Shown in pieces: positions 2,427 through 10,488 of a stretch of DNA of 11,882 nt; within the stretch, counting starts at the first letter, position 1, and each line of letters starts with the position of its first letter. The stretch comes from Deltaproteobacteria bacterium RBG_13_61_14. Its GTDB lineage: Bacteria; RBG-13-61-14. The position numbers and the translations under genes are program-made. The notes beneath the pieces were generated by a model. That model was given only the letters and a program-made list of their open reading frames with translations. It did not search any database and was not told the DNA's origin. Where the stretch lies: NCBI GenBank assembly GCA_001797815.1, contig MGQK01000106.1, positions 110,930 through 122,811 of the forward strand, written 5' to 3'.

Positions 2427-2453
2427 GAATCCCCGAATGCGAACCAGGTTTTT
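2415..2453 (+). terminator. Possible terminator hairpin at the end of the SppA gene
   Basis: CGCATTCG (2415-2422) and CGAATGCG (2434-2441) form a perfect 8-bp stem with an 11-base loop that includes the stop codon. Five T residues follow at 2449-2453. The T run starts 7 bases after the stem, so this is a weak fit to an intrinsic terminator. Confidence 0.35.
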
Positions 2454-2468
2454 ACTTGTAACTTAAGG
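2443..2468 (+). repeat. Left copy of a 26-bp direct repeat flanking the pilin-like pair
   Basis: It begins ACCAGGTTTTTA and continues CTTGTAACTTAAGG. The other copy at 3593-3618 differs at only two positions (6th base G to A, 12th base A to C). This copy lies between the SppA gene and the pilin-like promoter. The pair may be insertion or recombination scars, or shared 3'-end elements. Confidence 0.7.
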
Positions 2469-2580: not shown

Positions 2581-3072
2581 ATGGAAACCCGTCATGTGGA
2601 GGTTTGGATCAACGGCGCCCTGATCGCCCTGCTCCTCGGCCTGGTCGTATTCGCAGGCCGGGCCTGCCGCACCGAGACCGACTGCGAATGCCGAGGCAGC
2701 CGCGATTGCGGAGAATGCATCACCTATCAAGAAAGGTTCGCTCTCCAGGAGGAAGTCAAAACAAACCTGAATGCGATTTATGTGGCCGAGTGGTCCTACT
2801 TCGCCAACGCCAATACCTATTCCCCTTTCTTTTGGGAGATGAATTGGTATCCTCTGGCAGATCATTACTATGCCTATTTCTTGCCCAAGGAAGAGATCCA
2901 ACCCGATATCACTCAACCTTATTCTTTGCCGGCAGGGTTGGCGCCGGCGGTCAACGACTGGGGTTTTACCGCGGTGGCCGTGGGCAACATTGACTGCGAT
3001 ACTGTGCTCGACATCTGGACGATTAATGACGCCAAAGTTCTCGAGAACCTGGTGAACGACGTGGTGGAATAA
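2581..3072 (+). CDS. Pilin-like protein 1 with Cys-rich membrane-anchor region
   Basis: This 163-aa protein has a C-terminal part resembling type IV pilin heads. VKTNLNAIYVAEWSYFANANTYS (59-81) matches the stretch where pilins have '(S)EAKTNLGAI..AE.SYFAE..TY'. GFTAVAVGNIDCD..LDIWTIND (128-150) matches the pilin C-terminal strand pattern. The N-terminus is unlike a pilin: a 12-residue leader ending in Gly12, then a hydrophobic helix (about 13-28) with no Glu at +5. After it come Cys29, 35, 37, 43 and 46, and Cys139 lies in the head. The protein is expected to be in the inner membrane with its head outside. Processing by prepilin peptidase is uncertain. GGAGG lies 7 bases upstream of the ATG. 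A paralogue follows after 21 bases. Function is unknown; a pseudopilin or surface sensor is possible. Confidence 0.8.
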   Translation: METRHVEVWINGALIALLLGLVVFAGRACRTETDCECRGSRDCGECITYQERFALQEEVKTNLNAIYVAEWSYFANANTYSPFFWEMNWYPLADHYYAYFLPKEEIQPDITQPYSLPAGLAPAVNDWGFTAVAVGNIDCDTVLDIWTINDAKVLENLVNDVVE

Positions 3073-3093
3073 AGGCGAGCCGGGAGGGAGAAA

Positions 3094-3579
3094 ATGAAAA
3101 CGATTTGCTGGGAATTCGGGGGGCACGGAATTTTGATCGCGCTCCTCGTCGGCCTGGTCTTCAGCGCGGGCAGGTCCTGCCGCACCGAGACCGATTGTGA
3201 ATACAGGGGCACCTGTGGGAATTGCGTTACTTACCAGGAAATGTTTGCCCTCCAGGAGGAGGCAAAAGTGAACCTGGCGGCAATTTACACCGCGGAATTG
3301 AGCTATTTCAGCAACAGCAACACCTATGCCCCGACTTTCGATCAAATTAACTGGGCACCCGACTCCGGATATCGCTATGCCTATTTCCTGCCTGACCAGG
3401 AAATCCAGCCCGAGGGAGCCGAACCTTATCAATTGCCAGCCGGACTGGCTCCCTTGATCGCGGAAGTGTCTTTTATGGCTTATGCGGTCAGCAACATTGA
3501 CTGCGACGCAGTGATGGATGTTTGGATGGTTCACGACGCCCGCGCCATCGAAAATCTGGTCAATGACGCTTTGGAATAA
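3094..3579 (+). CDS. Pilin-like protein 2, paralogue of the preceding gene
   Basis: This 161-aa protein is a tandem paralogue of the preceding gene, at about 55-60% identity by eye. It keeps the same plan: leader ending in Gly12, hydrophobic helix (13-27), AGRSCRTETDCE (25-36) and C-x-x-C at 41-44. A pilin-like helix (about 48-75, with VNLAAIYTAELSYFSNSNTY) leads to a head ending SNIDCDAVMDVWMVHD. Cysteines are at 5, 29, 35, 41, 44 and 137. Cys37 of the first protein is Tyr here. Shared cysteines at the membrane exit and in the head suggest disulfides or a bound metal/cofactor, which is inference. GGGAGGG (3082-3088) is a strong ribosome site. The pair is one transcription unit, and divergence under a conserved Cys frame argues that both are functional. 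Confidence 0.8.
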   Translation: MKTICWEFGGHGILIALLVGLVFSAGRSCRTETDCEYRGTCGNCVTYQEMFALQEEAKVNLAAIYTAELSYFSNSNTYAPTFDQINWAPDSGYRYAYFLPDQEIQPEGAEPYQLPAGLAPLIAEVSFMAYAVSNIDCDAVMDVWMVHDARAIENLVNDALE

Positions 3580-3603
3580 ATCTTAAATCCGGACCAGATT
3601 TTT
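3551..3603 (+). terminator. Inverted repeat ending the pilin-like unit
   Basis: AAAATCTGGTC (3551-3561, inside the last codons) is perfectly complementary to GACCAGATTTT (3592-3602), with a 30-base loop and a T run to 3603. A smaller competing hairpin, AAATC (3585-3589) with GATTT (3597-3601), ends in the same T run. Either could terminate the plus-strand unit in this convergent 33-base gap. The long loop weakens the call. Confidence 0.4.
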
Positions 3604-3618
3604 CCTTGTAACTTAAGG
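3593..3618 (+). repeat. Right copy of the 26-bp direct repeat
   Basis: It matches 2443-2468 at 24 of 26 positions, including the unbroken 14 bases CTTGTAACTTAAGG. Its last six bases encode the final Pro codon and stop of the minus-strand LolA-like gene. The repeat therefore sits at a gene 3' end, as attachment or insertion sites often do. Confidence 0.7.
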
Positions 3619-8656: not shown

Positions 8657-8762
8657 ACCTGGCGGCCATGAGCACGTTGCCGTAAATGGCGGCGCCGATG
8701 GCCACCGCCTCTTCGGGCGGGATTTGATCGTAAGGGCTCCCAGATTGGTCAGGCCTCGCCAT
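8655..8762 (-). pseudogene. Remnant copy of the 3' end of an NBD-only hsp70
   Basis: A 35-codon reading frame (ATG at 8762, TGA at 8655) ends YDQIPPEEAVAIGAAIYGNVLMAAR. The intact neighbour ends YDQILPEEAVAIGAAIYGNVLQAAKK. The DNA shares an unbroken 32-base match within about 70 similar bases, with differences mostly at third codon positions. The first ten codons show no similarity to Hsp70. This looks like the tail of a second, tandem hsp70 whose body was deleted. Both copies stop at the same place, so the lost paralogue also lacked a substrate-binding domain. Translation of the short frame is possible but unsupported by a clear ribosome site. Confidence 0.75.
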
Positions 8763-8763
8763 C

Positions 8764-9984
8764 TTACTTTTTAGCCGCCTGAAGCACATTGCCGTAAATG
8801 GCGGCGCCGATGGCCACCGCTTCTTCGGGCAGGATCTGGTCGTAAATGATCTCGCCGAAGACTTCCCGCAGGCGCTGCTTGATCTTGGGCATGCGGGCCT
8901 GGCCGCCGACCAGGAGCAGCGCATCAATCTTGAATTTGGGGGCGAGGGTGCGGGCGTTGTCAATCGCGTCCAAGGAGATGGAAATAGTTTTTTCGATCAG
9001 GTCGGTGACAATATATTCGAGCACGTCGCGGCTGAGCTTGATGTCCATGTGCAGGTCGGGATCAATCTCGGGGATGACGTTGGAGACGTGGATCAGGGTG
9101 TGGGCGGAGTCGGAGAGCGCAATCTTGGCTTTCTCGGCTTCGGTCTTGATCGCCCGGAGGATGTCCTTGTCGGTGATGGTGATGCCGTCCTTATAGACCT
9201 TGCCGTCGGCGAAGCGGCGGTTGCGGGTGCTGGCCTTAAACTCCCGGAGCAGATATTCGGTGATGGCGTAGTCGAAGTCGTCGCCGCCCAGCCAGCCGTC
9301 GCCCAGGCTCCCCAGCTCTTCGTACCCGCCCTTGACCCGGCGCAAGATGGAGAAGTCAATGGTGCCGCCGCCCAGGTCATACACCGCGATGGTGTGCTCG
9401 CCCTTGTTCAGGTAGCCGAAGGCAAAGGCGGTGGCCATGGTCTCGTCCAACAGCCCGATCACGTTAAAGCCGACTTTTTCCGCCACCTGCTTGATCGCGG
9501 CGGTGTAGCGGGTCTTGAAGGTGTTGGGCATGGTGATGACCACGTCCTCCATCGGCTCGCGCAGATAGGCCTCGGCCATCTGCTTCAGGTAGCGGAAGAT
9601 GTAAACCGCGATGTCCACCGGCGAGGTGGAGATATCGTATTCGTGGATGCGGATCAGGATGTCGAACTCGTGGCTCTGGGCCTTCTCGTCCTTCTCCAGG
9701 ATGTAAAAATAGCGCTCCTGGGCCATGCGCACGTCTTCCGAATCATAGGACTTGCCTAAAAAGCGCTTGATCGAGTGAATGGTGCAGAAGGGGTTCTCCA
9801 CGTATTTCGACTTGGCCGCCCGGCCCACCATCAGGCGCACGTTGTCGTTCTTCTTGTAAATGTAAACGCAGGAAGGCACGATCTTGTAGCGCTCTTTGTC
9901 CAGCACCACCCGGGGCTTGCCCTGGTCCAGATAGGCCACGCAGGAGTTGGTGGTCCCGAAGTCAATCCCGATCACTTTTCCCAT
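8764..9984 (-). CDS. Hsp70-family protein consisting of the nucleotide-binding domain only
   Basis: This 406-aa actin-fold ATPase of the Hsp70/DnaK family stops where DnaK's linker and substrate-binding domain would begin. The visible motifs are phosphate-1 IGIDFGTTNSCVA (5-17), the KRFLG segment with Lys73 in the place of DnaK's catalytic Lys70, and VVITMPNTF (148-156). Also present are LDETMATAFAFG with Glu181, phosphate-2 VYDLGGGTIDFS with Thr208, adenosine motif LLLVGGQARMPKIKQ (356-370), and connect-2 PEEAVAIGAAIYG. ATP binding and hydrolysis look intact. Without a peptide-binding domain it is unlikely to be a classical foldase; a nucleotide-switched scaffold is inferred. GGAGG (minus strand, 9994-9990) lies 5 bases from the ATG. 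The cyclic-nucleotide-binding gene ends 21 bases upstream, so the two are almost certainly co-expressed. Confidence 0.9.
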   Translation of the reverse strand: MGKVIGIDFGTTNSCVAYLDQGKPRVVLDKERYKIVPSCVYIYKKNDNVRLMVGRAAKSKYVENPFCTIHSIKRFLGKSYDSEDVRMAQERYFYILEKDEKAQSHEFDILIRIHEYDISTSPVDIAVYIFRYLKQMAEAYLREPMEDVVITMPNTFKTRYTAAIKQVAEKVGFNVIGLLDETMATAFAFGYLNKGEHTIAVYDLGGGTIDFSILRRVKGGYEELGSLGDGWLGGDDFDYAITEYLLREFKASTRNRRFADGKVYKDGITITDKDILRAIKTEAEKAKIALSDSAHTLIHVSNVIPEIDPDLHMDIKLSRDVLEYIVTDLIEKTISISLDAIDNARTLAPKFKIDALLLVGGQARMPKIKQRLREVFGEIIYDQILPEEAVAIGAAIYGNVLQAAKK

Positions 9985-10005: not shown

Positions 10006-10488
10006 TCAGCGATTCTGGCTGGCCGCCCGGATGATCCGGTTGGCAATCGCCAGCCGATCCGTGGTCTCCCGCAGCCGGTCGGTCAAGATCATGTTGATCC
10101 GCCGGTAGATCTTGAGCGCCAACTCGTGGTCCTCGTCCATCAGTTTTTCGAAATATTCCCGCTTGATCCGGAACAGGCGCACGTCGGTCATCGCCCGGAT
10201 GGTGGCCGAGCGCGTCTCCTTGCCGAACAAGGCCATCTCCCCGAAGATCTCGCCCGGACCCAGGTCCGCCACCACCTCTTCCGCGATTTCCTTGAGCGCC
10301 AGCTTGATCACCGCCACCTGGCCTTCCCGGATCACATACAGCGCGTCCCCGGCCGCGCCGGCCGCGAAGATTTCTTCTCCCGCCCGCGCCCGCACCTTCT
10401 GGCAGACCGCCGCCAGTTTCTGCAACTCCGGGCTGGTGCAGTCCTGGAATAAAGGGATGCCCTTAAAAATATCGAGGCTCTCAACCAA
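10006..10488 (-). CDS. Cyclic nucleotide-binding (CNB) domain protein, no DNA-binding domain
   Basis: This 160-aa protein is a single CNB domain of the CRP/PKA-regulatory type, starting at LDIFKGIPLFQDCTSPEL (5-22). GEEIFAAGAAGDALYVIREGQVAV covers the first barrel strands. The phosphate-binding cassette is IFGEMALFGKETRSATIRA (81-99). Glu84 (ribose 2'-OH) and Arg93 (cyclic phosphate) are present, so cAMP or cGMP binding is plausible. The C-terminal 40 residues are helical and charged, with no helix-turn-helix, so it is not a transcription factor. A protein-protein switch is more likely, perhaps acting on the co-transcribed Hsp70. The TTG start at 10488 is fixed by GGAG 7 bases upstream and by the promoter directly before it. 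Confidence 0.88.
   Translation of the reverse strand: MVESLDIFKGIPLFQDCTSPELQKLAAVCQKVRARAGEEIFAAGAAGDALYVIREGQVAVIKLALKEIAEEVVADLGPGEIFGEMALFGKETRSATIRAMTDVRLFRIKREYFEKLMDEDHELALKIYRRINMILTDRLRETTDRLAIANRIIRAASQNR

Follow-up and report, generated by a model that had tools for sequence, protein, structure and literature searches.

Pilins are usually defined by their N-terminal assembly helix, the head being taken as the variable exterior of the fibre. The question raised by the present locus is what becomes of a pilin head when it is carried by an N-terminus other than that of a pilin. Within the window, i.e. the whole stretch of 11,882 nucleotides analysed, two paralogous genes lie in tandem, separated by a gap of 21 bases, exactly where the earlier note had located a pair of adjacent paralogous open reading frames:

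2581..3072, + strand: P0001, 163 aa, an open reading frame with a hydrophobic N-terminal segment, a Cys-rich linker and a PilA-type pilin head
3094..3579, + strand: P0002, 161 aa, an open reading frame for a paralogue with the same architecture as P0001
2512..2541, + strand: sigma-70-like promoter TTGACA-18-TAGAGT upstream of P0001, matching at 10/12 positions

The two proteins are 61% identical in pairwise alignment, which is what the "wide divergence" formerly attributed to them amounts to. Shine-Dalgarno-like sequences precede P0001 (GGAGG at 2569-2573) and P0002 (GGGAGGGA at 3082-3089), and the promoter is to be taken as a consensus match only, because the region holds 2 such sites vs. 0.9 in shuffled sequences. 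Over the whole gene, the Nei-Gojobori method gave a dN of 0.32 against a dS of about 1.85, i.e. saturated, and therefore both frames are real genes kept by selection; in other words, purifying selection acts on P0001 and P0002. For the Cys-rich segment (residues 29-50), the dN between the paralogues is 0.11.

Regarding the C-terminal part of both proteins, the claim of a pilin-like head was confirmed by Pfam, NCBIfam, comparison with the PDB and the predicted fold, with the following boundaries:

2725..3069, + strand: pilin head of P0001 (alpha1-C and beta sheet), residues 49-163, with Cys 139 in NIDCD, from the AF2 model and structure alignment
3232..3576, + strand: pilin head of P0002, residues 47-161, with NIDCD, from Pfam, phmmer and alignment

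Against Pilin_PilA (PF14245), P0002 scores above the gathering threshold of 28.5 (E 1.7e-7, 32.0 bits) and P0001 below it (E 0.0019, 18.9 bits), and the NCBIfam model of Myxococcus PilA (NF041775) is matched by both partially and below cut-off (E 3.4e-7 for P0001). Among PDB sequences, P0002 retrieved the M. xanthus PilA chain 8tj2_C by phmmer (E 2e-12), and the same chain was reached by hmmsearch with an alignment of the heads (E 5.4e-26). The AF2 model of the P0001 monomer, for which 33 sequences were used, mostly ordinary pilin heads from public genomes, displays a pilin head made of a helix (residues 49-77) and five strands with a pLDDT of 92-98; residues 1-48 are poorly modelled (pLDDT 52-71), and the model gives the linker no fold. 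In VIA-align, this model superimposes on M. xanthus PilA 8tj2_A with a Z of 14.0 and an rmsd of 2.3 over 119 residues at 29% identity, and the structure matches that come next are other type IV pilins. With an alignment of only P0001 and P0002, no usable model was obtained (pLDDT 36.5), so that prediction is not the sole basis of the fold claim, homology being the other. The pair also shares the NxDxDxxxDxW motif and the C-terminal ND motif with related pilins. Judged from sequence comparison and modelling, in which P0001 and P0002 resemble M. xanthus-type PilA (PF14245, NF041775, PDB 8tj2), the head is a type IVa PilA-type pilin domain. A weak likeness to Pilin_GH (PF16734, type IV pilin-like G and H) was seen by Pfam in some related heads, and not in P0001 or P0002 themselves. 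Besides, a cathepsin S match in the PDB search (E 0.8) and VP1 capsid matches to the head profile (E 0.25) were attributed to chance, and the non-pilin structures of the structure comparison, all with a Z under 4, were set aside.

Compared with M. xanthus PilA, what differs is everything that precedes the head, namely the absence of the GFxxxE site and of alpha1-N, in the place of which a hydrophobic segment and a 20-residue Cys-rich linker are found, as well as a Cys residue in the NIDxD loop:

2602..2658, + strand: hydrophobic segment VWINGALIALLLGLVVFAG, P0001 residues 8-26, a signal anchor or the h-region of a Sec signal
2659..2724, + strand: Cys-rich linker RACRTETDCECRGSRDCGECIT, P0001 residues 27-48, in no other protein searched
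3115..3171, + strand: hydrophobic segment FGGHGILIALLVGLVFSAG, P0002 residues 8-26, Kyte-Doolittle 19-residue mean 1.88
3172..3231, + strand: Cys-rich linker RSCRTETDCEYRGTCGNCVT, P0002 residues 27-46, from the pairwise alignment with P0001

The hydrophobic stretch covers about 14-19 residues; its Kyte-Doolittle 19-residue mean reaches 2.27 in P0001, and a crude hydropathy score makes it a fair transmembrane helix in P0001 and a borderline one in P0002. A basic n-region is absent from both proteins, the net charge being near zero. In the model of P0001, a helix is predicted with low confidence at residues 10-24 and, at similarly low confidence, none between residues 24 and 49. In the sequence itself, the Cys-rich segment interrupts the passage from the hydrophobic helix to alpha1-C, so that the continuous alpha1-N/alpha1-C helix is absent; GFxxxE is missing as well, as is alpha1-N, the assembly helix, in its entirety. 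A genome-wide search with N_methyl (PF07963) matched nine pilins or pseudopilins, P0001 and P0002 not being among them. The 12-residue leader ending in Gly described in the earlier note stands insofar as G12 is common to both paralogues, and falls short in that it is accompanied neither by F or M at +1 nor by E at +5 nor by a preceding basic cluster. A lipoprotein was considered and rejected, as a lipobox is absent, GRAC or GRSC having Arg at -2 and Gly at -3.

The Cys residues are located at positions 29, 35, 37, 43, 46 and 139 in P0001 and at positions 5, 29, 35, 41, 44 and 137 in P0002. Five of them are common to both proteins, i.e. C29, C35, the CGxC pair and the Cys of NIDCD; C37 is peculiar to P0001 and C5 to P0002. 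Between the hydrophobic stretch and alpha1-C, the linker follows the pattern RxCRTETDCE...CGxC, and the alignment bears out that CRTETDCE (29-36) is identical in the two paralogues. As for the Cys in NIDCD (C139), this position is never Cys in the NIDxD-type pilins of the alignment. The conservation of the Cys frame had been put forward as a sign of function; the frame is indeed shared, yet this gives the argument modest support only, since conservation of the Cys and linker residues relative to the head shows no significant excess between P0001 and P0002 (Fisher p = 0.27), and a common Cys frame alone is weak evidence for function.

Searching the linker separately from the head brought up no annotated family carrying the CRTETDC segment. 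Patterns of the Cys segment gave 29 matches in about 85,000 species genomes and 44 in viral contigs, none of which is a relative, in searches that depend on conserved short peptides and which diverged copies may escape. Profile searches of 386 related or sampled whole genomes returned head matches only, the linker being absent elsewhere; the N-terminal 55 residues searched against three genomes of the phylum retrieved the pair itself and a chance match (E 0.5), and tblastn against a plasmid collection retrieved none. The literature search found no paper on a Cys-rich anchor for pilin heads. Among the genomes searched, including the remainder of the pair's own genome, the full architecture, i.e. 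Cys linker plus pilin head, was found only in P0001 and P0002.

The broader combination of a pilin head with a non-pilin membrane segment is by no means restricted to this pair. In the same genome, L003 has a pilin head without GFxxxE on another membrane segment, and in sister genomes the heads of L012, L020, L021 and L022 likewise lack GFxxxE behind other membrane segments. DUF4190-like helices precede pilin heads in these sister genomes, L022 (genome G001) combining a zinc ribbon with DUF4190, and L011 (G001:C1) is a 668-aa protein with an internal PilA-type head and membrane segments after it. A head of the same kind without GFxxxE occurs in an unrelated genome (L013). In Myxococcota, GFxxxE is missing at 6 of the 17 readable loci (L143-L146, L152, L163), a count that is no frequency since these loci were picked by their likeness to a DUF4190-type query. 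Of these, L143-L146 and L152 are membrane proteins of the DUF4190 type in which a PilA head, again with no GFxxxE, forms the C-terminal end. The literature search found no paper joining DUF4190 with pilins or naming this architecture. On a tree of the heads with many weak branches, 4 changes of the re-anchored label are required, of which at least 2 are forced by well-supported branches; the heads of P0001 and P0002 stand on a long branch, apart from the pilins of their own genome and from L003. Like P0001 and P0002, these other proteins (L022, L012, L021, L020, L003, L011, L143-L146, L152, L163) have the head and a non-pilin membrane segment and lack GFxxxE; unlike them, they mostly possess several transmembrane helices or large domains, most retain the AIAIPNF part of the pilin alpha1, and none has the CRTETDC...CGxC linker. 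The combination of a pilin head with a Cys-rich non-pilin N-terminus is supported, and its uniqueness was oversold, because re-anchored pilin heads already recur elsewhere and only the Cys linker is particular to P0001 and P0002. As a separate observation, a putative lipoprotein encoded elsewhere in the genome (L008, C82:8176-8367) matches the pilin profile only over about 40 residues near its C-terminus, where the segment IIGNADNDDGMDLFMLND resembles the C-terminus of a pilin head.

Elsewhere in the genome, a prepilin peptidase gene, PilM (E 1.3e-79) and ordinary PilA pilins were found, the latter (L004 and L005) with a GFTLIELMI...AIPNF helix and related heads. The organism probably makes pili, because its sequence contains type IVa machinery (PilM, prepilin peptidase) along with ordinary pilins. 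The immediate neighbours of P0001 and P0002 are an S49 peptidase (SppA-like) gene and a convergent LolA-like gene, pilus genes being absent there. The GC content of the pair is 54-55% vs. 59-69% in the other window genes measured, which need not mean a foreign origin because the pilins of the same genome are at 54-56%. The two-gene segment is flanked by a direct repeat:

2436..2468, + strand: direct repeat of 33 bp, left copy (88% identity with the right one)
3586..3618, + strand: direct repeat of 33 bp, right copy, on the other side of the two genes

Across the 4.7 Mb genome, the repeat core GAACCAGGTTYTTACTTGTAACTTAA is present in 4 copies; the two outside this locus (C45:55416 and C63:67774) lie next to gene ends. 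The segment between the repeats is no more than a possible mobile cassette, because four copies of the core are all that the genome contains and none of the genes in the window was recognisable as that of a recombinase. Further along the window, another direct repeat of 72 bp (88%), at 8662-8733 and 8774-8845, covers the 3' end of an Hsp70-like gene, and because of it a second copy of the last codons follows this gene. The Hsp70-type protein concerned (8764-9984, - strand; 406 aa) matches the ATPase part only (1-378 of 599 of the profile), and its gene adjoins one for a cyclic-nucleotide-binding protein (10006-10488, - strand).

From sequence and model, P0001 and P0002 are best read as pilin heads that do not polymerise, are either tethered to the membrane or secreted, and stand on a stalk braced by disulfides. 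In its more specific form, where the head would be held at the membrane by its non-pilin N-terminus, braced by disulfides and unable to polymerise, this explanation has an even chance of being right. Export would depend on the hydrophobic segment, which would most likely serve as a signal anchor in N-in orientation. The periplasm is oxidising and favours disulfides; there, C29 and C35 as well as the CGxC pair may form disulfides bracing a short stalk, and the Cys of NIDCD could possibly connect stalk and head or join P0001 to P0002. In T4aP, alpha1 helices build the pilus core and alpha1-N is the membrane anchor of the subunit (PMC11046646); given this architecture, entry into the pilus core is unlikely for proteins with no assembly helix. 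Lacking alpha1-N and E5, P0001 and P0002 would undergo neither ordinary prepilin handling nor pilus-core entry and would act at the membrane as non-polymerising pilin heads; probably, they do not assemble into pili and remain at the membrane or on the surface of the cell. Most likely, they would modulate pilin subunits or partner with them, or else serve as a self-contained binding module in the periplasm; that they take part in pilus control is a guess. Against parts of this explanation stand the low confidence of the model at residues 1-48, the dependence of the fold on the alignment with pilins, the number of Cys in the linker and head of P0002, which at five is odd for fully paired periplasmic Cys, and the position of the locus away from pilus genes, which leaves a link of the pair to pili conjectural.

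The same N-terminal features have to be weighed for other explanations. Secretion of soluble pilin-head proteins through a cleavable Sec signal peptide, the mature form starting with the Cys-rich segment, is possible if rather unlikely: judging from crude hydropathy only, the hydrophobic core may be as short as about 14 residues and small residues that could occupy positions -3 and -1 come after it, with possible signal peptidase I sites between VFA and GR in P0001 and between VFS and AG in P0002, the latter protein also having a borderline insertion score; against it, the basic n-region is absent, the net charge is near zero and P0001 scores as a fair transmembrane helix. That the pair would be atypical minor pilins, cut by the prepilin peptidase after G12 and serving as tip or minor subunits in the manner of members lacking Glu5, is distinctly improbable. 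G12 does sit directly before the hydrophobic helix in both paralogues and the genome does hold a prepilin peptidase and pilus genes, but F or M at +1, E5, a basic leader and an N_methyl match are all wanting, and alpha1-C begins 36 residues after G12, vs. about 24 in pilins, with the Cys-rich break in between.

Split pilins come to mind because GSU1497-like proteins are pilin heads encoded without alpha1-N (PMC5174107), an arrangement matched by P0001 and P0002, for which Geobacter PilA-C/GSU1497 is the nearest described separate head; docking of the heads on a separate short alpha1-N pilin would nonetheless be very improbable here. GSU1496/GSU1497-like genes are adjacent (PMC5174107), whereas no pilin gene adjoins P0001 and P0002; no short PilA-N-like pilin was seen in the genome-wide N_methyl search, the smallest frame being of 158 aa; and, unlike PilA-C/GSU1497, the pair has alpha1-C and an extra Cys linker, with no detectable short partner. 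PilA-C or Geobacter pilus chains are also absent among the PDB matches of the head profile; that a geobacterial pilus structure is not among the structure matches listed proves nothing either way. A redox or metal module is hardly credible. In such a module, the four linker Cys (C-x5-C-xn-CGxC) would coordinate a metal such as zinc or form a thiol switch, and the head would be the sensor or the ligand. These four Cys, including the CGxC pair, are conserved in both paralogues, but searches of Pfam, NCBIfam and the PDB matched no domain known for metal or redox functions, the linker has no fold in the model, and the periplasm favours disulfides.

Returning to the membrane-held, non-polymerising head, a bolder proposal, clearly unlikely as it stands, is that in bacteria of this lineage and in Myxococcota the pilin head serves as a portable domain of the periplasm, released from the assembly of fibres, and that the pair would form a disulfide-braced heterodimer regulating or sensing the pilus from the membrane. 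In practical terms, a head profile alone would mislabel genes of the P0001/P0002 type as pilins and N_methyl alone misses them. Genes under selection in which the head has been retained and the assembly helix discarded suggest that the pilin head has a use of its own, and since such heads recur on unrelated anchors, culturable Myxococcota offer a way to test this.
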